This document shows, piece by piece, positions 9,548 to 20,802 of a stretch of DNA of 46,364 bases; the first letter of the stretch is position 1; every line of letters begins with the position of its first letter. Below the pieces are notes generated by a model. The model was not told where the DNA came from, ran no database searches, and saw only the letters and a list, made by a program, of their open reading frames with translations. A program made the position numbers and the translations under genes. The stretch is taken from the NCBI GenBank assembly GCA_029212405.1, contig JARGNR010000025.1, positions 24,277-70,640 on the forward strand, read 5' to 3'. The DNA comes from Saprospiraceae bacterium. Lineage in GTDB: Bacteria; Bacteroidota; Bacteroidia; Chitinophagales; Saprospiraceae.

Positions 9548-10711
9548 ATGTCAAAAGATAAGATATTCATTTTCGATACTACCCTAAGGGACGGTGAACA
9601 AGTTCCAGGATGTAAATTGAACCAAGATCAAAAAATAGTCATTGCTCGTCAATTGGATGCCTTAGGTGTAGATGTTATAGAAGCTGGATTCCCTATATCA
9701 AGTCCGGGTGATTTCAAAGCAGTGGAAGCCATAGCTCGAGTTGTAAAAAATGCAACAGTTTGTGGCTTGTCTCGATCAGTAGAAAAAGATATAAAATGTG
9801 CTGCCGATGCTTTGAGGCACGCCAAAAGACCAAGAATACATACTGGTATTGGCACCTCAGATATGCACATCAAGTATAAGTTCAACTCAACTAGAGAAAA
9901 AATAATAGAAAGAGCTGTAGCTGCAGTAAAATATGCGAAAACCTTTGTAGAAGACGTAGAGTTTTATGCAGAAGATGCCGGACGAACAGACAATGTATTT
10001 TTGGCACAAATATGCTCCGCTGTTGTTAAAGCCGGGGCTACTGTACTTAATATACCCGATACCACAGGTTATTGTCTACCGTCTGAATATGGAGAGAAAA
10101 TCGCTTTTTTAAGAGACAATGTAGTAGGCATTGACAAAGCTATTTTATCAACACATTGCCATAATGATCTTGGATTAGCGACAGCAAATGCAATTTCTGG
10201 AGTAATACATGGTGCTCGTCAGATTGAGTGTACCATCAATGGAATTGGGGAAAGAGCGGGAAACACAGCACTTGAAGAAGTCGTTATGATTCTACAACAC
10301 CGTATGGGTCAAGCATATTTTACGGATATAGAATCAAAACAATTAAACAGAATGAGTAGAGCTGTTTCTGATATGATGTGTATGCCTGTTCAACCCAATA
10401 AAGCAATTGTTGGTGATAATGCCTTTGCTCATAGTTCTGGTATTCATCAAGATGGTGTAATTAAAAATAGAGAAAATTATGAGATCATTGATCCCATAAG
10501 TGTAGGTGTGGATCATTCATCCATAATCTTGACTGCTCGAAGTGGAAGAGCTGCCTTGGCATTCAGAGCTAAAGAAATTGGATTTAATTTATTTAAAGAC
10601 GAATTGGATGTGGCGTATAATGCATTTATTGACCTTGCAGACCGCAAGAAAGAAGTAAATGAAAGAGACTTAAAAAAAATGCTTTCGTCCATGTTTAAAG
10701 TACACGCTTAG
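9548..10711 (+). CDS. leuA: 2-isopropylmalate synthase, short form without regulatory domain
   Basis: First committed step of leucine synthesis: acetyl-CoA plus 2-ketoisovalerate gives 2-isopropylmalate. The DRE-TIM barrel is clear: [11 protein letters not shown] at the N-terminus, the [12 protein letters not shown] strand, the metal-binding [13 protein letters not shown] and [10 protein letters not shown]. The protein is 387 residues, whereas the classic enzyme is about 510-560 with a C-terminal LeuA-dimer domain that binds leucine. Here the chain ends soon after the linker region (the [15 protein letters not shown] subdomain), so the leucine-sensing domain is absent. The downstream sequence goes straight into leuC after 27 bases and shows no leftover of such a domain, so this looks native and not a frameshift. 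Homocitrate synthase-like enzymes are an alternative, but the leuCDB neighbours settle the role. Confidence 0.94.
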
Positions 10712-10738: not shown

Positions 10739-12109
10739 ATGACATTATTTGATAAAATTTGGGATGCTCATGTTGTCACTCAAATTAAAGGAGGTAGACA
10801 AGTGTTATATATCGATCGCCACTTTATTCATGAAGTAACTAGTCCTCAGGCATTTTCTGGTTTAAAAACGAGGAATATTCCCTTATATAGAAAAGAGAAA
10901 ATAACGGCAACTGCAGACCACAACGTTCCTACTAAAAACCAACATCTCCCGATTACGGAACCCCTATCAAAAAAACAAGTTAATACCTTACTCCAAAACT
11001 GTAAAGACTTCGATATTCCTTGTTATGGTCTCGGCCATGAAAAACAAGGAATCGTTCATGTTATAGGACCAGAATTAGGGATCACCCGACCAGGAATGAC
11101 AATTGTTTGCGGAGATAGTCATACAAGTACTCATGGCGCATTTGGTTGTATAGCATTTGGTATAGGGACATCTCAGGTTGAGCAAGTCATGGCTTCTCAA
11201 TGCTTGATTTTAAACAAGCCGAAAACCATGCGTATTACCGTAAATGGTGCTTTACAAAAAGGGGTTACCTCAAAAGATATTGTGTTATACATCATTTCAA
11301 AACTGACTGCAGCAGGAGGAACTGGACATTTTATTGAATTCGCAGGAGATACCATCCAAAATCTCTCCATGGAAGCTAGAATGACCATCTGCAATATGAG
11401 CATTGAAATGGGAGCTAGAGGAGGAATGATTGCTCCGGACCAGAAAACATTTGACTATATCAAAGGACGAGAATTTGCACCAAAAGGCATAGATTTTGAA
11501 AATGCTGTAGCCCACTGGAAAACACTCAAATCTGAGGATGGAGCTATATTTGATACCGAACATTCGTTTGAAGCATCAGACATTAGTCCAATGCTTACTT
11601 ATGGTACCAATCCTGGGATGGGAATTAAAATAGAAGATTCTATCCCTGACACCAATAATAAAAAAGCATTGGATTACATGGGTTTTTCTGCAGGTGAATC
11701 ATTGATCGGAAAAAGAATCGAACATGTTTTCATTGGCAGTTGTACCAATTCCAGAATAGAAGATTTGAGACAAGTAGCTGATTTTGTTAAAGGCAAGAGT
11801 AAAGCTCAACATATCACAGCAATGATTGTCCCTGGATCAAAAAAGGTAGAAAAACAAGCCAAAGAAGAAGGATTGGATAAAATATTTGAAGCTGCAGGAT
11901 TTGAGTTGAGAGAACCTGGTTGTTCAGCCTGTTTGGGTATGAATGAAGATAAGATTCCTGAGGGAGAATATTGTGTTTCAACTTCCAATAGAAACTTTGA
12001 AGGAAGACAAGGCCCAGGAGCAAGAACAATATTGGCTAGTCCATTAACAGCGGCAGCAGTTGCTGTAGAGGGACAAATTGTAGATATTAGAAAGTTTTTG
12101 AGCAATTAA
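10739..12109 (+). CDS. leuC: 3-isopropylmalate dehydratase large subunit
   Basis: Aconitase-family large subunit, 456 residues, a normal length. With LeuD it isomerises 2- to 3-isopropylmalate. The [4Fe-4S] ligands are Cys335 in FIGSCTNSR and Cys395 and Cys398 in [10 protein letters not shown]. The early [12 protein letters not shown] motif is also intact. It sits between leuA and leuD on the same strand with gaps of 27 and 36 bases, so it is part of the leuACDB block. Confidence 0.97.
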
Positions 12110-12145: not shown

Positions 12146-12736
12146 ATGGAAGCACTGCAAAAAATAAAAAGTACTGCGGTTCCTATACCTGTTGAAAACA
12201 TAGATACAGACCAAATTATTCCAGCTAGATTCTTGAAAGCAATTTCTAGAGAGGGGTTTGGTGAAAACTTATTCAGAGACTGGAGGTATGAAAAGTCTGG
12301 AAACAAAGTAGATGACTTCATACTTAACAATCCTATATATACTGGAAAAATACTAGTCGCTGGAAAAAATTTTGGTTGCGGGTCAAGCAGAGAACATGCA
12401 GTATGGGCATTACACGACTATGGATTTAGGGTAGTGATATCAAGTTTTTTTGCAGATATATTCAAAGGAAACTCATTAAATAATGGATTGGTGCCTATCA
12501 CCGTGGATGATGCTACATTACATCTCATCTTTGAGTTCATTGAAAATGACCCCAATCATGTATTTGAGGTGGATATTGCATCTCAGACTTTAAAAATTAA
12601 TGAAACCCATACCCTACACTTTGATATAGATGAATACAAAAAGGAGTGTATTTTAAAAGGGTATGACGATATTGACTATTTATTAAGTATCAAGGACAAA
12701 ATCGAAGAATTCGAAAAACAACAAGAATTATATTGA
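12146..12736 (+). CDS. leuD: 3-isopropylmalate dehydratase small subunit
   Basis: Swivelling-domain partner of LeuC, 196 residues. The typical [14 protein letters not shown] motif lies near the N-terminus, and [14 protein letters not shown] supplies the substrate-binding loop. The gene follows leuC by 36 bases and precedes leuB by 27 bases. The length and both motifs are normal, so an active LeuCD complex is expected. Confidence 0.97.
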
Positions 12737-12763
12737 GCTGCGTTGAAAAATAGACGACTTAAA

Positions 12764-13852
12764 ATGAGCAAACTACAAAACATAACAGTACTAAAAGGAG
12801 ATGGAATAGGACCGGAAGTGGTCAATCAAGCTATTAAAGTACTCCATGCGATCGCTGAAAAATATGCCCATACCTTTACTTTTGATGAGCAACTTATCGG
12901 TGCTTCAGCTATAGATCAAACAGGGAACCCACTCCCTGACCATACGATTGAAAGCTGCAAATCAGCAGATGCTATTCTATTAGGTGCAATTGGAGATCCT
13001 AAATATGACAATGACCCCAATGCTACTGTACGTCCTGAACAAGGATTATTGAAACTAAGGAAAACATTAGGCCTCTTTGCTAATATCAGACCGGTTAGAA
13101 TCTTTGATAATTTAAAACATTTATCGGTACTCAAACCAGAAGTATTGCAAAATGTAGATATGGTTATTTACAGAGAACTGACGGGAGGAATCTACTTTGG
13201 TAAAAAAGAAAAAAATGAAGAACAGGCATCTGATTTATGTCATTATCATCGATTTGAAATAGAACGAATCGCTAAATTGGCATTTGAGGAGGCAACAAAG
13301 AGAAGAAACAAATTGTGTCTAATTGATAAAGCAAATGTATTAGATACTTCAAGGTTATGGAGGGATGTAGTCCAGCAAATGAGTCCATCCTACCCTTCAG
13401 TAGAAGTCAATTACTTATTTATTGACAATGCTGCGATGCAAATGATTTTAAATCCTTCTCAATTTGATGTTATTGTCACTTCCAATATGTTTGGCGATAT
13501 CATTTCTGATGAAGCAAGCGTTCTTGGGGGATCTTTAGGGCTTTTACCATCTTCTTCTGCTGGAACTGAGGCAAGATTATATGAACCCGTTCATGGATCA
13601 TTCCCACAAGCAACAGGAAAAAACATTGCAAATCCCTTAGCCACTATCTTATCTATTGAAATGATGCTTCGAGACTTTGGATTGATAGAAGAAGCCGATG
13701 ATGTATTGAATTCTGTAACCTATTGTATTGATCAAAATTTACTAACTATTGACTTAATCAAAGAAAATGCTTTACTTTGTTCAGAAGTTGGAGATCAAAT
13801 CACAAATCGAATATCTTCCAAAACATCTAAAGACTATGGCGTACTCATATGA
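12764..13852 (+). CDS. leuB: 3-isopropylmalate dehydrogenase
   Basis: NAD-dependent oxidative decarboxylation of 3-isopropylmalate, the third leucine-specific step. From the ATG at 12764 the protein has 362 residues and begins directly with the conserved ITVLKGDGIGPEVV. An upstream in-frame TTG at 12743 would add seven unconserved residues, so I preferred the ATG. Active-site signatures are the RPEQGLLKLRK substrate loop, YRELTGGIYFG, CLIDKANVLDTSRLW (catalytic Lys) and the metal-binding DIISDEASVLGGSLGLLPS. The adenine-loop segment EPVHGSFPQATGKNIANP is present. Its TGA overlaps an ATG (ATGA at 13849) that starts a 5-codon mini-ORF leading into the ilv leader peptide. Confidence 0.96.
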   Translation: MSKLQNITVLKGDGIGPEVVNQAIKVLHAIAEKYAHTFTFDEQLIGASAIDQTGNPLPDHTIESCKSADAILLGAIGDPKYDNDPNATVRPEQGLLKLRKTLGLFANIRPVRIFDNLKHLSVLKPEVLQNVDMVIYRELTGGIYFGKKEKNEEQASDLCHYHRFEIERIAKLAFEEATKRRNKLCLIDKANVLDTSRLWRDVVQQMSPSYPSVEVNYLFIDNAAMQMILNPSQFDVIVTSNMFGDIISDEASVLGGSLGLLPSSSAGTEARLYEPVHGSFPQATGKNIANPLATILSIEMMLRDFGLIEEADDVLNSVTYCIDQNLLTIDLIKENALLCSEVGDQITNRISSKTSKDYGVLI

Positions 13853-13862
13853 ATATAATGGT

Positions 13863-13943
13863 ATGAACAGAGCATTGACAGTCGTCAACATAGTCTCTAT
13901 TTCAATTATTATTATTAGTGTAATTATTATTCAAATGCTCTAA
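13863..13943 (+). CDS. Branched-chain leader peptide of the ilv attenuator
   Basis: A 26-codon ORF between leuB and ilvD. It begins MNRALTVVNIVSIS and continues with four Ile, SV, three Ile, QML and stop. Of 26 residues 9 are Ile, 4 Val and 2 Leu; eight of the nine Ile codons are ATT, in runs of four and three. Followed at once by mutually exclusive hairpins and a terminator, this is the layout of an amino-acid leader-peptide attenuator, analogous in logic to the enterobacterial ilv leaders but not obviously homologous. Its ATG overlaps the TGA of a 5-codon mini-ORF (13849-13866), itself overlapping the leuB stop, so ribosomes finishing leuB could be passed on to it. A small membrane protein is the alternative, but the terminator and pairing scheme make that unlikely. 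Confidence 0.85.
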   Translation: MNRALTVVNIVSISIIIISVIIIQML

Positions 13944-13983
13944 GGAGGTTGACTATATATAAAATAAAAAAAGGTCATTCTCC
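13884..13983 (+). promoter_or_regulatory. Attenuator RNA: alternative 1:2 and 2:3 pairings
   Basis: Region 1 (GTCAAC, 13884-13889, inside the Val-Val-Asn codons) is exactly complementary to GTTGAC at 13948-13953. Region 2 (GGAGGTTGAC, 13944-13953, directly after the leader stop) also pairs with region 3 (GTCATTCTCC, 13974-13983): eight Watson-Crick pairs, one G-U and one mismatch. The 2:3 hairpin uses almost the entire 5' arm of the terminator, so it is an antiterminator. A ribosome stalled on the Ile run would cover region 1 and leave region 2 free for 2:3 (readthrough). A ribosome reaching the stop codon would cover region 2 and let the terminator form. Confidence 0.8.
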
Positions 13984-14002
13984 ATTGAGAGTGGCCTTTT
14001 TT
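13966..14002 (+). terminator. Rho-independent terminator of the ilv attenuator
   Basis: The 5' arm GGTCATTCTC (13973-13982) pairs along all ten positions with GAGAGTGGCC (13987-13996), two of them G-U, around a CATT loop. The stem is flanked by an A run and followed by six T (13997-14002). It ends 19 bases before the ilvD start, the right place for controlling entry into ilvDBNCA; it also serves as the end of the leu transcript when antitermination fails. Confidence 0.92.
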
Positions 14003-14021
14003 AGTTTAAAGAAATTAAAAA

Positions 14022-15698
14022 ATGGAGTTAAATAAATACAGCAAACATGTAACATCGGATCCTTCACAACCAGCAGCACAAGCGATGCTACATGCTATTG
14101 GTCTCACGTCTGAGGATTTAAAAAAACCTCAAATAGGAATTGCCAGTACCGGGTGGGAAGGAAATCCATGCAATATGCACTTAAATGACTTGGCGAAGGA
14201 AATCAAAACAGGGGTATCGAAAGAGGATCTCATCGGATTGATTTTCCATACCATTGGGGTGAGCGACGGAATATCTATGGGAACTGCAGGAATGCGATAC
14301 TCACTCCCATCTAGAGATATCATTGCCGATAGCATAGAAACAGTTGCTTCTGCACAATGGTATGATGCATTGGTTACCGTTGTAGGTTGTGATAAAAATA
14401 TGCCAGGTGCATTGATGGCATTAGGTAGATTAAATAGACCTAGCATATTATTTTTTGGTGGCACCATAGGTCCAGGTTGTCATGCAGGAAAAGACTTAAC
14501 AATCATATCCACTTTTGAAGCTCTCGGTGAGCATATTGCGGGTAACATTGAACAAGGAGAACTCCAGCAAATTATAAAAAAAGCATGTCCAGGTCCAGGT
14601 GCATGTGGTGGTATGTATACCGCAAATACAATGGCCTCTGCCATAGAAGCAATGGGAATGGCACTTCCTTACAACTCATCAAATCCTGCTGTCAGTACGA
14701 ATAAAGCGGAGGAAGCTTTACGCGTAGGACAAGCAATAAACAATCTCTTGCAAAATGATATCAAGCCGAGGGACATCGTCACTCAAGCATCCATAGAAAA
14801 TGCATTGAAATTAATCACTGTATTAGGAGGATCAACAAATGCAGTTTTACATTTTCTCGCAATTGCAAAAGCGTTTGGACTTTCTCTTTCTCTTTCAGAT
14901 TTTCAAAAAATTACGGATTCTACTCCTTTCCTTGCTGACTTAAAACCAAGCGGAAAATACGTTATGGAGGATTTACATAATGCTGGTGGTGTACCCGCAG
15001 TTATGAAAATGATGTTAGAGGAAGGTATGATAGATGGAAGCTGTATGACGGTAACGGGTAAAACAGTAGCAGAGAATCTAGAAAATGTAGGTAGTTTGAA
15101 AGAAGGCCAAAAAGTAATCTATCCGGTTTCAGAACCGATTAAAGAAACAGGTCATTTGCAAATGCTTTTTGGCAACTTGGCTACTGAAGGTGCAGTCGCT
15201 AAAATAACTGGTAAAGAAGGGGAAGTATTTTCAGGACCTGCTCAAGTGTTTGAATCAGAAGCTGAAACAAATGCTGCCATTCAACGCCGAGAAATTGAAG
15301 AAGGGGCAGTTATTGTGATCAGACAATCGGGACCAAAAGGGGCCCCAGGCATGCCAGAAATGCTCAAACCTACTGGGCTACTTATGGGCGCAGGACTGGG
15401 AAAAAGTGTGGCCCTAATCACAGATGGAAGGTTTTCAGGAGGAACGCATGGATTTGTTGTAGGGCACATTACTCCAGAGGCATATAACGGAGGAACAATA
15501 GGCCTCATAGAAAATGGTGATATCATTACAATTGATGCTCGGAACAATACTATAGATGTAAATCTTAGTGAAGCTGAATTAGAAGAAAGAAGAAAAAATT
15601 GGAAACGTCCAGAGAATAATTTAACAGGCTTTTTGAAAAAATATAGATATACGGTTTCATCTGCATCTGAGGGATGTGTGACGGATGGTGAGTATTAA
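14022..15698 (+). CDS. ilvD: Dihydroxy-acid dehydratase
   Basis: Dehydrates the dihydroxy acids to 2-ketoisovalerate and 2-keto-3-methylvalerate, the shared third step of valine and isoleucine synthesis. The 558-residue length is standard. The three iron-sulfur cysteines are Cys50 (GNPCNMH), Cys123 ([10 protein letters not shown]) and Cys195 ([14 protein letters not shown]). The C-terminal [16 protein letters not shown] motif is intact. It is the first gene after the attenuator, so its expression is the most directly controlled. A 269-base gap follows before ilvB. Confidence 0.97.
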
Positions 15699-15967
15699 GA
15701 GTAGGAGGAATAGCTGGATATGCGGAAATGCGAGAATGCGGGAATGTTTAAAAAATCGAAATTTCTTTTTTCTCACTGATGGAAGTAGCCCATTTTTTTA
15801 TTCAAGGCCAAAAAACTTTCATTCTTCGAGATTAAGGATTATCGTTTGATTAAACCAAGTATAGACAAACTAGCAAATAAAATTAATGCTTTTCATAAAC
15901 ACCTAAAACCAAAACAATAACAATTACTTGCCCACAATTCAGCGATTAAAGCACAAAAAACAAAAAA
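15699..15967 (+). other. Gap between ilvD and ilvB with a short imperfect tandem repeat
   Basis: This 269-base gap is the longest inside the ilv cluster. At 15720-15746 it holds three imperfect head-to-tail copies of a unit like ATGCGGAA (ATGCGGAA, ATGCGAGA, ATGCGGGAATG). No leader ORF, terminator or clear TAnnTTTG box was found, so it may be spacer or hide an internal promoter that I cannot recognise. Confidence 0.4.
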
Positions 15968-17704
15968 ATGAAAGTACAATCAATAAAAGAAACCAAGAGT
16001 AAGACCAAGACTACTGAACATATCTCTGGCTCTGAAGCTGTACTTAAGTGTATTCTTCACAATGGGGTCGATACTATATTTGGTTATCCAGGCGGGGCAA
16101 TTATGCCTATTTATGATGCACTCTATTCGTACCAAGATAAAATTACCCATATCTTAACCAGACATGAACAGGGTGCCATTCATGCGGCAGAAGGCTATGC
16201 TAGAGTCAGAAGAAAAACGGGGGTAGCTTTTGCTACTTCTGGACCAGGAGCGACAAACTTATTCACAGGTCTGCTGGATGCATTAATGGACAGTACACCT
16301 CTTGTCTGTGTGACAGGACAAATATATAGTTCACTCTTAGGTTCCGATGCTTTCCAAGAAGCAGATGTAATCGGTTGTACCACTTCCATCACAAAATGGA
16401 ATTATCAAATCACAAAGGCAGCTGAAATACCTGAAGTTTTTGCAAAAGCATTTTACATCGCTAATACGGGTAAGCCAGGTCCAGTTGTAATTGATATTAC
16501 CAAAGATGCACAATTGGAAATGTTTGATTTTGAAGTAGCAGAACAACCCGTTCTTAGAAGCTATAATCCAAGACCAAAAGTAAATCCCGATCAAATTTCT
16601 GAAGCAGCAAGATTAATCAATGCAGCTAAAAAGCCTTTTATTTTGGCTGGTCATGGTATCCATATTGCTCAGGCTCAAGATGAATTTGTTTCGTTTGTAG
16701 AGAAAACAGGTATTCCTGTAGGTTGTACTATTCACGGACTATCGACTATATCAAGTGACCACGAATTGAACATGGGAATGCTTGGTATGCATGGAAATTA
16801 TGGCCCGAATGTTAAAACCAATCAATGTGATGTTTTGATTGCTATTGGGATGAGATTCGATGATAGAGTTACTGGAAATCTGTCAAAATACGCAAAACAA
16901 GCAAAGGTCATTCACATAGAAATTGATCCATCAGAAGTGGATAAAAATGTAAAAACAGAAGTGGCTGTAATTGCAGATGCAAAAGATGCTTTATTGGCCC
17001 TAACCCCATTGGTTGAAGAAAAATCATATCCAGAATGGATCTCAGAATTTCATGAATGCGACAAACAAGAAGCTGAAAAAGTATTCTCTAAAGATTTAAA
17101 AATCAAAGCTTCAGGTTCTATCACCATGGGAAGAATCATGCAAGAAGTGTCCAATCAAACAAAAGGCAAGGCTATTGTTGCAACCGATGTAGGGCAACAC
17201 CAAATGATCGCTGCCAGGTATTATGACTACAATGGCTTCGATCAATGGCTGTCTTCAGGAGGTGCTGGAACTATGGGTTTTGGATTACCCGCTGCAATCG
17301 GAGCACAATTGGGGCGAAAAGATGCTACCGTCATTTGTGTATGTGGAGATGGAGGGTTCCAAATGACTATCCAAGAATTAGGCGTATTGAGCCAATGGAA
17401 AATTCCAGTGAAAATTTTATTGCTGGACAACAACTATCTAGGCATGGTTCGACAATGGCAGCAATTGTTTTTTGACAAGAGGTACTCTTTTGTCGAACTA
17501 GAGAATCCAGATTTTGTGAAAATAGCAGAAGGGTTTGGTGTACAGGGTAAAACGATATCCGACGCGAGTGAAATCAATCAAGGAATTGAAGAGATGTTAT
17601 CATACGACGGTCCTTTCCTTCTGCACGTACAGGTTGAAAAAGAAGAGAATATTTTTCCAATGATTGCCACAGGAAAAGCAGTCGATGAAATAACTCTCGA
17701 ATAA
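15968..17704 (+). CDS. ilvB: Acetolactate synthase large (catalytic) subunit
   Basis: Thiamine-diphosphate enzyme that makes acetolactate or acetohydroxybutyrate from pyruvate. It has 578 residues. Glu67 in TRHEQGAIHAAEGYAR is the cofactor-activating glutamate, and CGDGGFQMTIQEL followed by LLLDNNYLGMVRQWQ is the GDG-N diphosphate/Mg site. The VFGYPGG-type start (TIFGYPGGAIMPIYD) is typical of AHAS. About 20 polar residues precede the conserved core. It is followed by its regulatory subunit gene ilvN. Confidence 0.97.
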   Translation: MKVQSIKETKSKTKTTEHISGSEAVLKCILHNGVDTIFGYPGGAIMPIYDALYSYQDKITHILTRHEQGAIHAAEGYARVRRKTGVAFATSGPGATNLFTGLLDALMDSTPLVCVTGQIYSSLLGSDAFQEADVIGCTTSITKWNYQITKAAEIPEVFAKAFYIANTGKPGPVVIDITKDAQLEMFDFEVAEQPVLRSYNPRPKVNPDQISEAARLINAAKKPFILAGHGIHIAQAQDEFVSFVEKTGIPVGCTIHGLSTISSDHELNMGMLGMHGNYGPNVKTNQCDVLIAIGMRFDDRVTGNLSKYAKQAKVIHIEIDPSEVDKNVKTEVAVIADAKDALLALTPLVEEKSYPEWISEFHECDKQEAEKVFSKDLKIKASGSITMGRIMQEVSNQTKGKAIVATDVGQHQMIAARYYDYNGFDQWLSSGGAGTMGFGLPAAIGAQLGRKDATVICVCGDGGFQMTIQELGVLSQWKIPVKILLLDNNYLGMVRQWQQLFFDKRYSFVELENPDFVKIAEGFGVQGKTISDASEINQGIEEMLSYDGPFLLHVQVEKEENIFPMIATGKAVDEITLE

Positions 17705-17762
17705 ACTTGAAGCTGAAAGAAAATAAATTTTGATCCACTCAAAAGGTGATAAAAAAATAATC

Positions 17763-18305
17763 ATGGAAGAAACAAAAAGAATACATACACTGGTCATTTT
17801 CTCAGAAAACAAAATGGGAATATTAGCTAGAATCGTTGGCATTATTACCCGAAGGCATATCAATATTAAGAGTATAAATTCATCTCCTTCCAGTTTGGAA
17901 GGCATTTATCGCTATACAATTGTGGTCAACTTAACCGACGAACTATCTCGAAAATTGGTCGCTCAATTAGACAAACAAGTAGATGTATTAAAAGCATTTT
18001 CATACACCGATGATGAATTGGTATATCAAGAAATAGCATTGTATAAGATTCCCTCAAAAATCTTTTACGAAGGGGATAGCTGCGAGCTACTGGTTAGAAA
18101 ACATAATGCGAGAATCATTTCAATAGAACCTGAATATATCGTGATTGAAAAGACTGGTCATCATGAAGAAACAGAAGCATTATTAAATCAATTGAGAGAA
18201 AAAGGAATATATGAATTCGTCCGATCCGGTCGCGTAGCTATTGTAAAACCAATGGAGCGCCTCAATAATTATTTAGCAACTATAGAGCGGGCAGCATCTG
18301 TATAA
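17763..18305 (+). CDS. ilvN: Acetolactate synthase small (regulatory) subunit
   Basis: From the ATG at 17763 the protein has 180 residues, the usual size for the long form of the AHAS regulatory subunit. The N-terminal ACT domain is clear (HTLVIFSENKMGILARIVGI, then RRHINIKSINSSPSS); the second half is the C-terminal AHAS-S domain. It binds IlvB, raises its activity and confers valine feedback inhibition in the family. The frame stays open upstream to a TTG at 17730, but the extra 11 residues are unconserved. It lies 58 bases after ilvB and 69 before ilvC. With the short LeuA, this is one of the two visible ACT-type allosteric control points in the cluster, the other being IlvA. Confidence 0.94.
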   Translation: MEETKRIHTLVIFSENKMGILARIVGIITRRHINIKSINSSPSSLEGIYRYTIVVNLTDELSRKLVAQLDKQVDVLKAFSYTDDELVYQEIALYKIPSKIFYEGDSCELLVRKHNARIISIEPEYIVIEKTGHHEETEALLNQLREKGIYEFVRSGRVAIVKPMERLNNYLATIERAASV

Positions 18306-18374: not shown

Positions 18375-19421
18375 ATGGCACAATTTAATTTTGGAGGCGT
18401 AGAAGAAAACGTAGTAACCAGAGAAGAATTTCCTTACGACAAAGCAAGAGAAGTCCTCAAAGATGAGACCATAGCAATTATTGGGTATGGAGTTCAAGGT
18501 CCAGGACAGGCTTTAAATTTAAGAGACAACGGTTTCAAGGTGATCATTGGTCAACGATCTCCTTCCAAATCTTACGACAAGGCAATAGCTGACGGTTTTG
18601 TACCAGGAGAAACGCTATTCTCTATTGAGGAAGCAGCAGAGAAAGCTACTGTCATCCAATACTTATTGTCAGATGCAGCACAAATAGCGGTTTGGCCTAC
18701 ATTAAAGCCTTATCTCACAAAAGGAAAAGCTTTGTACTTTTCTCATGGATTCGGGATTACCTATAAAGAAAGAACAGGCATCATTCCTCCAGATGACATC
18801 GACGTTATATTGGCGGCTCCTAAAGGATCTGGAACCAGTCTTAGAAGGTTATTTGTAGCTGGAAAAGGATTGAACTCATCATTTGCAGTATTTCAAGATG
18901 CCACTGGAAGAGCAAGAGATCGTGTCATTGCCTTAGGTATAGGGATAGGATCTGGATACTTATTTGAAACAACCTTCAAACGTGAGGTATACAGTGACCT
19001 TACAGGTGAGAGAGGCTCGTTAATGGGTGCAATCCAAGGCTTGTTTGCAGCTCAATATGATTTGTTACGATCAAAAGGACATTCGCCGTCTGAAGCATTT
19101 AATGAGACCGTGGAAGAAGCAACGGAATCGTTATATCCTCTCGTTGCAGAAAATGGAATGGATTGGATGTATGCCAACTGTTCAACTACTGCACAAAGAG
19201 GTGCATTAGACTGGTGGAAAAAATTCCGTGATGCGGTAAAACCTGTTTTTGAAGAATTATATGAAAGTGTTGAAACTGGAAATGAAGCTCAACTTTCTAT
19301 TGATAGCAACAGTCAATCCGATTATAGAGAAAAACTTGAAGCAGAATTGGATGAATTGAAGAATAGTGAAATGTGGCAAGCAGGAAGAGCAGTAAGAAGT
19401 TTACGTCCTGATAATTCGTAG
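18375..19421 (+). CDS. ilvC: Ketol-acid reductoisomerase (short form)
   Basis: Converts acetolactate or acetohydroxybutyrate to the dihydroxy acids with NAD(P)H and Mg2+. The Rossmann motif is IAIIGYGVQGPGQALNLRDNG, followed by the cofactor loop GQRSPSKSYDKA. Metal- and substrate-binding segments include AAPKGSGTSLRR, DLTGERGSLMG and the helical EEATESLYPL region. At 348 residues it has the short single-knot arrangement, unlike the ~490-residue enterobacterial form. The sequence style (GYGVQGPGQ) resembles the Bacteroidales and eukaryotic-organelle type. The last 30 residues form an acidic or charged helix. Confidence 0.96.
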   Translation: MAQFNFGGVEENVVTREEFPYDKAREVLKDETIAIIGYGVQGPGQALNLRDNGFKVIIGQRSPSKSYDKAIADGFVPGETLFSIEEAAEKATVIQYLLSDAAQIAVWPTLKPYLTKGKALYFSHGFGITYKERTGIIPPDDIDVILAAPKGSGTSLRRLFVAGKGLNSSFAVFQDATGRARDRVIALGIGIGSGYLFETTFKREVYSDLTGERGSLMGAIQGLFAAQYDLLRSKGHSPSEAFNETVEEATESLYPLVAENGMDWMYANCSTTAQRGALDWWKKFRDAVKPVFEELYESVETGNEAQLSIDSNSQSDYREKLEAELDELKNSEMWQAGRAVRSLRPDNS

Positions 19422-19533: not shown

Positions 19534-20802
19534 ATGCAAATTGCAGAAACAAAACTAAGTTCCATGATTTCCATTGAAGACATTGATGCAGCATCCGAAC
19601 GTATTAAAGATGTGGTTCTTGAAACTCCTTTCTCCGCAAATCAAAATCTCTCTGAAAATTACAACTGCACCGTCTACCTCAAAAGAGAAGACATGCAATC
19701 TGTACGGTCATTTAAAATAAGAGGTGCCTACAATAAAATCAAGTCTCTTTCTTCTAGAGAAATTGAAAACGGTGTTGTTTGTGCAAGTGCAGGAAATCAT
19801 GCTCAAGGGGTTGCACTATCTTGTTCTAAATTGAAAATAAAAGGAACGATTTTCATGCCTCACCCTACTCCAAATCAAAAAGTAGCCAAAGTAAAACAGT
19901 TTGGAGGAGAATGGATCGAAATTATATTAACCGGCGACACCTTTGATGATGCCCATTTGAGTGCGTTATCTGCATCAGAAAACCGAAACATGGCCTTTAT
20001 TCATCCTTTCAATGATAAGGATGTGATAGCAGGGCAAGGTACGATTGCCAAAGAAATGCTCAATCAGGCTGACCATCCACTGGACTATTTATTTGTGGCT
20101 GTTGGAGGAGGTGGACTTCTTTCGGGAGTAGGTAGTTATTTCAAGCAAATGAGTCCCAAAACTAAAATAATCGCTGTGGAAGCGTCAGGTGCAGCCGCAT
20201 TAGCGGCTTCACTTAAGCAAGGTCAATTGGCTACACTCAACAATATAGATAGTTTTGCAGATGGAATTGCAGTGAAAAAAATAGGAGACCTCACATTTAA
20301 AATAATCTCTGAAATATACGATGAGAATGTAACTGTCCCAGAAGGGGCCATTTGCTCATCCATCCTAAAATTATACAACGAAGAGGCGATTGTGGTCGAA
20401 CCCGCTGGTGCCGTATCTATTGCCGCGTTGGAAAGCTACCGGGAACAAATTAAAGGAAAACATATAGGGATAATTATCTGTGGAGGAAATAACGACGTTA
20501 ATCGGACTCAAGAGATAAGGGAAAGAGCCTTATTGCACGAAGGAAAAAAACATTATTTCATTGTCCGTTTTCCACAACGAGCAGGCGCCCTACGAGAATT
20601 CCTAAATGTATTGGGCCCCAATGACGATATTGCTCATTTCGAGTATACTAAAAAAACCAATCGGGCGAGTGGCCCGGCACTGGTGGGCTTAGAACTGCAA
20701 AACAAAGAAGACTTTGACGCTCTGGTTCAAAGAATGACAAACCAAGGAATCAATTTTGAGCACATCAATAATAATCCCATGCTATTTGAAATGCTGGTAT
20801 AG
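19534..20802 (+). CDS. ilvA: Threonine dehydratase (threonine ammonia-lyase)
   Basis: PLP enzyme that deaminates threonine to 2-oxobutyrate, the isoleucine-specific entry step. The Schiff-base lysine is Lys61 in VRSFKIRGAYNK; ASAGNHAQGVA and the glycine loop VGGGGLLSG complete the PLP site. At 422 residues it has one C-terminal ACT-like regulatory domain (HYFIVRFPQRAGALREFLNVL, from about residue 340), not the two found in the ~514-residue E. coli enzyme. It is the last gene of the cluster; its regulatory domain should provide isoleucine feedback. No strong terminator follows. Confidence 0.95.
   Translation: MQIAETKLSSMISIEDIDAASERIKDVVLETPFSANQNLSENYNCTVYLKREDMQSVRSFKIRGAYNKIKSLSSREIENGVVCASAGNHAQGVALSCSKLKIKGTIFMPHPTPNQKVAKVKQFGGEWIEIILTGDTFDDAHLSALSASENRNMAFIHPFNDKDVIAGQGTIAKEMLNQADHPLDYLFVAVGGGGLLSGVGSYFKQMSPKTKIIAVEASGAAALAASLKQGQLATLNNIDSFADGIAVKKIGDLTFKIISEIYDENVTVPEGAICSSILKLYNEEAIVVEPAGAVSIAALESYREQIKGKHIGIIICGGNNDVNRTQEIRERALLHEGKKHYFIVRFPQRAGALREFLNVLGPNDDIAHFEYTKKTNRASGPALVGLELQNKEDFDALVQRMTNQGINFEHINNNPMLFEMLV

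Follow-up and report, generated by a model that had tools for sequence, protein, structure and literature searches.

Organization of the leu–ilv locus

The window, by which we mean the whole stretch of 46,364 nucleotides analysed here, carries the gene order leuACDB–ilvDBNCA, with every gene on the + strand. The first gene, leuA (9548–10711), encodes a short form of 2-isopropylmalate synthase of 387 aa recognized by NF002086 with 595.8 bits, and is followed by leuC (10739–12109; TIGR00170), leuD (12146–12736; TIGR00171) and leuB (12743–13852; TIGR00169), whose TGA stop codon occupies 13850–13852. Downstream lie ilvD (14022–15698; TIGR00110), ilvB (15968–17704; TIGR00118), ilvN (17730–18305; TIGR00119), ilvC (18375–19421; TIGR00465) and ilvA (19534–20802; NF006390), the last encoding threonine ammonia-lyase, each of these matches being over its cut-off.

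The C-terminal regulatory domain of LeuA is the leucine sensor of the enzyme. The window LeuA matches the synthase profile no further than about position 378 of 494, and a Pfam search returned HMGL-like and HCS_D2 as the only matches, with no such regulatory domain. The gap between ilvD and ilvB contains, at 15755–15908, a decayed remnant of a four-helix-bundle gene (TIGR02436; tblastn E 7e-10), which is intact in a relative of the same genus (L005:1047–1409), where it stands between the predicted attenuator and ilvD.

A putative attenuator between leuB and ilvD

A short leader ORF (MNRALTVVNIVSISIIIISVIIIQML; 13863–13943, + strand) begins 10 nt after the leuB stop codon and ends with TAA at 13941–13943. 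Its 26 codons, counted from the ATG at 13863, are rich in those for the end-product amino acid and its companions: nine specify Ile, four Val and two Leu, a total of 15. The putative regulatory isoleucine codons are arranged in runs of four ATT (13905–13916) and three ATT (13923–13931), just as the first-pass annotation had read them in the sequence. Between this ORF and ilvD, on the same strand, folding and covariation point to an intrinsic terminator hairpin at 13970–13999, in which the arms 13970–13982 and 13987–13999 form 13 pairs (two of them G.U) around a CATT loop, with a tract of six T read directly at 13997–14002. The six T had already been recognized, while the ten pairs then assigned to the stem have to be replaced by thirteen. 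The 173-nt segment from 13849 to 14021 folds with a z of −3.3. Since the stem ends 22 nt before the ilvD ATG (the T tract, 19 nt), ilvD, the first gene under the proposed control, is probably made by read-through.

Immediately 3′ of the leader stop codon lies region 2 (GGAGGTTGAC; 13944–13953, + strand), the 5′ strand of a candidate antiterminator. The 5′ arm of the terminator doubles as its partner (13974–13983), the two structures being mutually exclusive. Nine of the ten positions pair, leaving one T.T mismatch (13949 with 13978), and the duplex reached a z of −5.1 (p 0.005, 200 shuffles). In a folding model of the RNA extended to 13986, with a ribosome placed at either ATT run, the antiterminator was the predicted fold (−11.8 kcal/mol), and once the ribosome was moved to the stop codon of the leader it became unavailable. 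The geometry proposed at first pass, in which a ribosome at the stop codon masks region 2, holds, as 13944–13953 directly follows the stop. For the full-length RNA every modelled case gave the terminator as the stabler of the two folds, and the choice of antitermination would thus have to be kinetic.

Occurrence and covariation of the module in relatives

We scanned 125 loci upstream of ilvD, 45 of them from a search of 100 genomes (IlvD was found in 47, the window's own included) and 80 of them named, the best 80 of 593; these relatives are not independent, and in two cases a pair of loci shares the same final 300 nt. A module was called where a leader and a terminator occurred together, leaders being scored by the number of I/V/L in 12 residues. 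The first-pass annotation had regarded the lack of a conserved leader or terminator in related genomes as fatal to its reading; instead, 78 modules were called and, after five were dropped, 73 of the 125 loci carried both elements upstream of ilvD. The five (L038, L058, L083, L096 and L100) were discarded by eye, being either not I/V leaders or located inside other genes, and removal of L007, L098 and L109 as duplicates left 70 distinct leaders. By source, the module occurred in 22 of 36 loci from the window's family, 3 of 9 from other families of the order and 48 of the 80 named loci, themselves the 80 best among 593; the other 52 of the 125, including 14 of the 36 from the same family, yielded no accepted module. 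When a strict limit of 450 nt before ilvD was set, a leader plus terminator with a score of at least 7 was present in 55/125 loci, versus 7/125 reverse complements and 0/625 dinucleotide shuffles. Many relatives in the phylum carry, as predicted from these elements, an isoleucine leader-peptide attenuator before ilvD.

The residues of the 70 distinct leaders comprise 29.6% Ile and 15.5% Val but only 6.3% Leu, and ATT is the main isoleucine codon (324 of 434). When the leaders of two same-genus relatives, L004 and L005, were compared, seven of the eight differences fell at third positions, the differing codons being six synonymous and one non-synonymous (P 0.0024 versus random substitutions). 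On this pattern of substitutions, the comparison shows coding constraint on the L004 and L005 leaders, the count covering those two alone.

Covariation was counted on the 22 of the 70 sequences that are nearest to the window. In the terminator, 95.8% of cells were paired and 8 of 13 pairs had changed on both sides, a count reached by none of 500 shuffles. The corresponding figures for the antiterminator were 85.8% and 6 of 10 pairs (reached by 14 of 500 shuffles), with a covariation score of 0.353 that no shuffle among 500 attained and that compares with at most 0.201 in slid versions, a control which leans in favour of the structures because they were picked from the same sequences. At antiterminator pair 40:86, 15 rows have G-C and three have A-U, these three being the members of the window's genus, in which the same C-to-U change gives only a G.U in the terminator. 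Across the 70 loci, own antiterminator duplexes averaged −12.9 kcal/mol versus −8.6 for swapped partners, with p <0.05 in 50 loci, <0.2 in 65 and at least 0.2 in five. In the same 70 loci, region 2 starts between 24 nt before and 8 nt after the leader stop codon, the search interval itself having opened 24 nt before it. The competing pairing of 13944–13953 with 13974–13983 claimed at first pass is thus borne out both in the sequence, at nine of ten positions, and among relatives.

The remaining pairing had been proposed as a 1:2 stem joining region 1 (GTCAAC, 13884–13889, + strand) to GTTGAC at 13948–13953. All six pairs are indeed present in the window, but relatives support them weakly as a 1:2 stem: own partners gave −8.7 kcal/mol versus −7.7 for swapped ones over the 70 loci, 17 of which ranked in the best tenth, with a median rank of 23 of 70 and the window in 11th place (10 better). 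In L004 and L005 the stem was not seen at the window's place, and the pairing found elsewhere there is weaker. Among the three stems for which a covariation check had been suggested, the terminator and the antiterminator covary, whereas the 1:2 stem is weak across the 70 loci. Should this stem not exist, it would provide no means of silencing leaders that go untranslated.

A terminator and an alternative pairing in a leader are also what a metabolite-binding riboswitch or a T-box would use, and a weak match to Thr_leader might be counted on that side. Nevertheless, this match reached 26.6 bits against a gathering score of 55 and was the best sub-threshold hit in the window, where no Rfam family attained its gathering score; only about 100 nt separate leuB from the terminator, and what stays constant are Ile/Val codons and a region 2 near the stop codon, and not an aptamer. 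We regard such an element as extremely improbable here. At the leaders of 11 other loci no Rfam family was matched at gathering score either, the sole match, Flavo-1, lying elsewhere.

Position of the leader and candidate promoters

The site between leuB and ilvD, which the first-pass annotation had singled out, was confirmed, although it proved common and not unusual: leuB was found upstream in 31 of the 125 loci, and 27 of these 31 have a leader. The distance from leuB to the leader was measured in 25 loci: three loci of the window's genus have 10–13 nt, L088 has 2 nt and the remaining 21 have 53–277 nt, so that a leader start 10–13 nt after leuB is rare. From the leader stop to the ilvD start there are 78 nt in the window and more than 900 nt in some relatives.

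These distances bear on whether the leader could be mainly translational, or a coupled reinitiation element for ilvD, with termination being secondary. The leuB stop and the leader start lie 10 nt apart and the leader stop and the ilvD start 78 nt apart, and leader genes near structural genes are reported, in the accessible text of one study, to raise translation (PMC4833913). However, a separation of 78 nt in one genome and more than 900 nt in others is too far and too variable for reinitiation, and the terminator, with 13 pairs and six T, also argues against termination being secondary, so that this explanation appears highly improbable.

The motif TAnnTTTG, given as the sigma-A box in the accessible part of a report on F. 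psychrophilum (PMC9723704), occurs in the 200 nt that precede the leader at 25 of the 70 loci, versus a shuffle mean of 11. In five Flavobacterium loci (L065, L066, L071, L105 and L107) a TACTTTTG box is found in the leuB–ilvD gap, 26–29 nt 5′ of the leader ATG, which suggests that ilv may have its own promoter in Flavobacterium. In the window, a search of the 250 nt ahead of the leader found no TAnnTTTG box, which makes it likelier that the leader is transcribed together with leu or from a promoter within leuB, for which 13486 is a candidate; a TAnnTTTG without TTG lies about 30 nt 5′ of leuA. The candidate inside leuB, TATGTTTG with an upstream TTG, is located at 13486–13493, 377 nt before the leader, and may be due to chance. 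Co-transcription of leu and ilv would imply a separate tuning of the two by the element between them.

The hairpin might instead be a mere 3′ terminator of the leu operon, the small ORF being accidental and ilvD having a promoter of its own. It does stand directly behind leuB, and the Flavobacterium boxes indicate that ilv can form a separate unit in that genus. Against this, the 22 nt from the stem and 19 nt from the T tract to the ilvD ATG leave little room for a promoter, the hairpin ends at most 60 nt from ilvD in 26 of 70 loci, the leader recurs with its frame kept between L004 and L005, and the antiterminator covaries. We therefore consider a simple leu terminator very unlikely.

Further leader modules

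Two other candidate leaders were detected in the window's genome: MKKVNTYIHHHFHSAQLSR, a leader ORF with a His run and a terminator directly before hisG (L129:1198–1314), and MKKHNFTWWHTFQLSIRD, a Trp-Trp leader ORF with a terminator directly before trpE (L130:1295–1410). Candidate antiterminators were found in both, and attenuation seems to be general in this genome; no threonine leader was detected before its homoserine dehydrogenase gene at the thresholds used. In 11 of the 125 loci, two I/V leader–terminator modules occur in series before ilvD as candidate pairs (L021, L044, L064, L072, L075, L084, L085, L106, L108 and L116, with L061 weaker). These loci span the Saprospiraceae family, Flavobacteriaceae, Chryseobacterium and Ignavibacteriae, and the antiterminator of the additional module had p <0.05 in 10 of the 11, the exception being L061.

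Discussion

Our findings make it highly probable that the leuB–ilvD gap encodes a ribosome-mediated transcription attenuator of ilvDBNCA for which charged tRNA-Ile, probably along with tRNA-Val, is the signal. The mechanism is very probably classic ribosome-mediated attenuation, a kind already known, as the first-pass annotation had proposed; relatives lend support to each of the three elements, the leader ORF, the terminator and the antiterminator. When isoleucine is plentiful, the ribosome would reach the stop codon and cover 13944–13953, allowing the terminator to form and transcription to stop near 14000. When isoleucine is scarce, the ribosome would stall at the ATT runs and 13944–13953 would pair with 13974–13983, so that RNA polymerase could continue into ilvD. 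The leader would lie inside the leu transcript and would perhaps be translated by ribosomes leaving leuB, and the leu genes would escape this control.

The E. coli ilvL–ilvGMEDA attenuator has a leader with Ile/Val/Leu codons, a terminator, a competing antiterminator and masking at the stop codon. The likeness seen between the window and this system is one of architecture; unlike it, the window has a leader with few Leu codons, an internal position after leuB and an uncertain 1:2 stem. For Proteobacteria and Actinobacteria, attenuation by leader peptides is described in the accessible portions of two sources (PMC2965389, PMC1262725). The ilvBNC leaders of Corynebacterium and other Actinobacteria, as far as the available text of the reports describes them, also combine Ile/Val/Leu codons with a terminator, but belong to another phylum and have ilvB as the first gene instead of ilvD; according to the same partial texts, a codon-replacement test in Streptomyces gave no support for classic attenuation (PMC1262725, PMC11857589, PMC10272879). 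Within the same phylum, the accessible text on Flavobacterium psychrophilum describes strong clues of leader-peptide attenuation before amino-acid biosynthesis operons, with ilv not named in that text (PMC9723704). The Bacteroid-trp RNA (RF01692) appears in the accessible part of its source as a cis-regulatory candidate of Bacteroidetes whose name points to trp (PMC2864571); it is not an ilv element and has no match in the window. Tandem attenuators with two short ORFs in one leader are described for Salmonella mgtCBR in the available text (PMC3641672) and resemble the doubled modules of some relatives, although they respond to other signals and the window has one module. Our literature search, outside of which subscription journals mostly lie, found no paper on this ilv leader in Bacteroidota. 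Vitreschak et al. 2004 reportedly mention Bacteroidetes/Chlorobi attenuators.

A broader proposal, which we put forward tentatively and with less than even confidence, is that these elements form an undescribed ilv leader family that extends across the phylum, with one Ignavibacteriae record besides. Its module would be put to varied use: under a promoter of its own in Flavobacterium; fused 10–13 nt behind leuB in the genus of the window, where leuB translation may feed the leader; and present as two copies in series at about one locus in ten, which could steepen the isoleucine response.

The locus would thus represent a classic, well-covarying case of amino-acid attenuation, without Rfam coverage, in a phylum whose regulation has been little studied. 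Shine-Dalgarno motifs are reported, in the accessible text on F. psychrophilum, to matter little in Bacteroidota (PMC9723704); in this phylum, the close ribosome–polymerase coupling that attenuation needs is itself a question. One genome offers testable ilv, his and trp attenuators, and the single, leuB-fused and doubled attenuators predicted here would provide a natural series for asking how such switches evolve.
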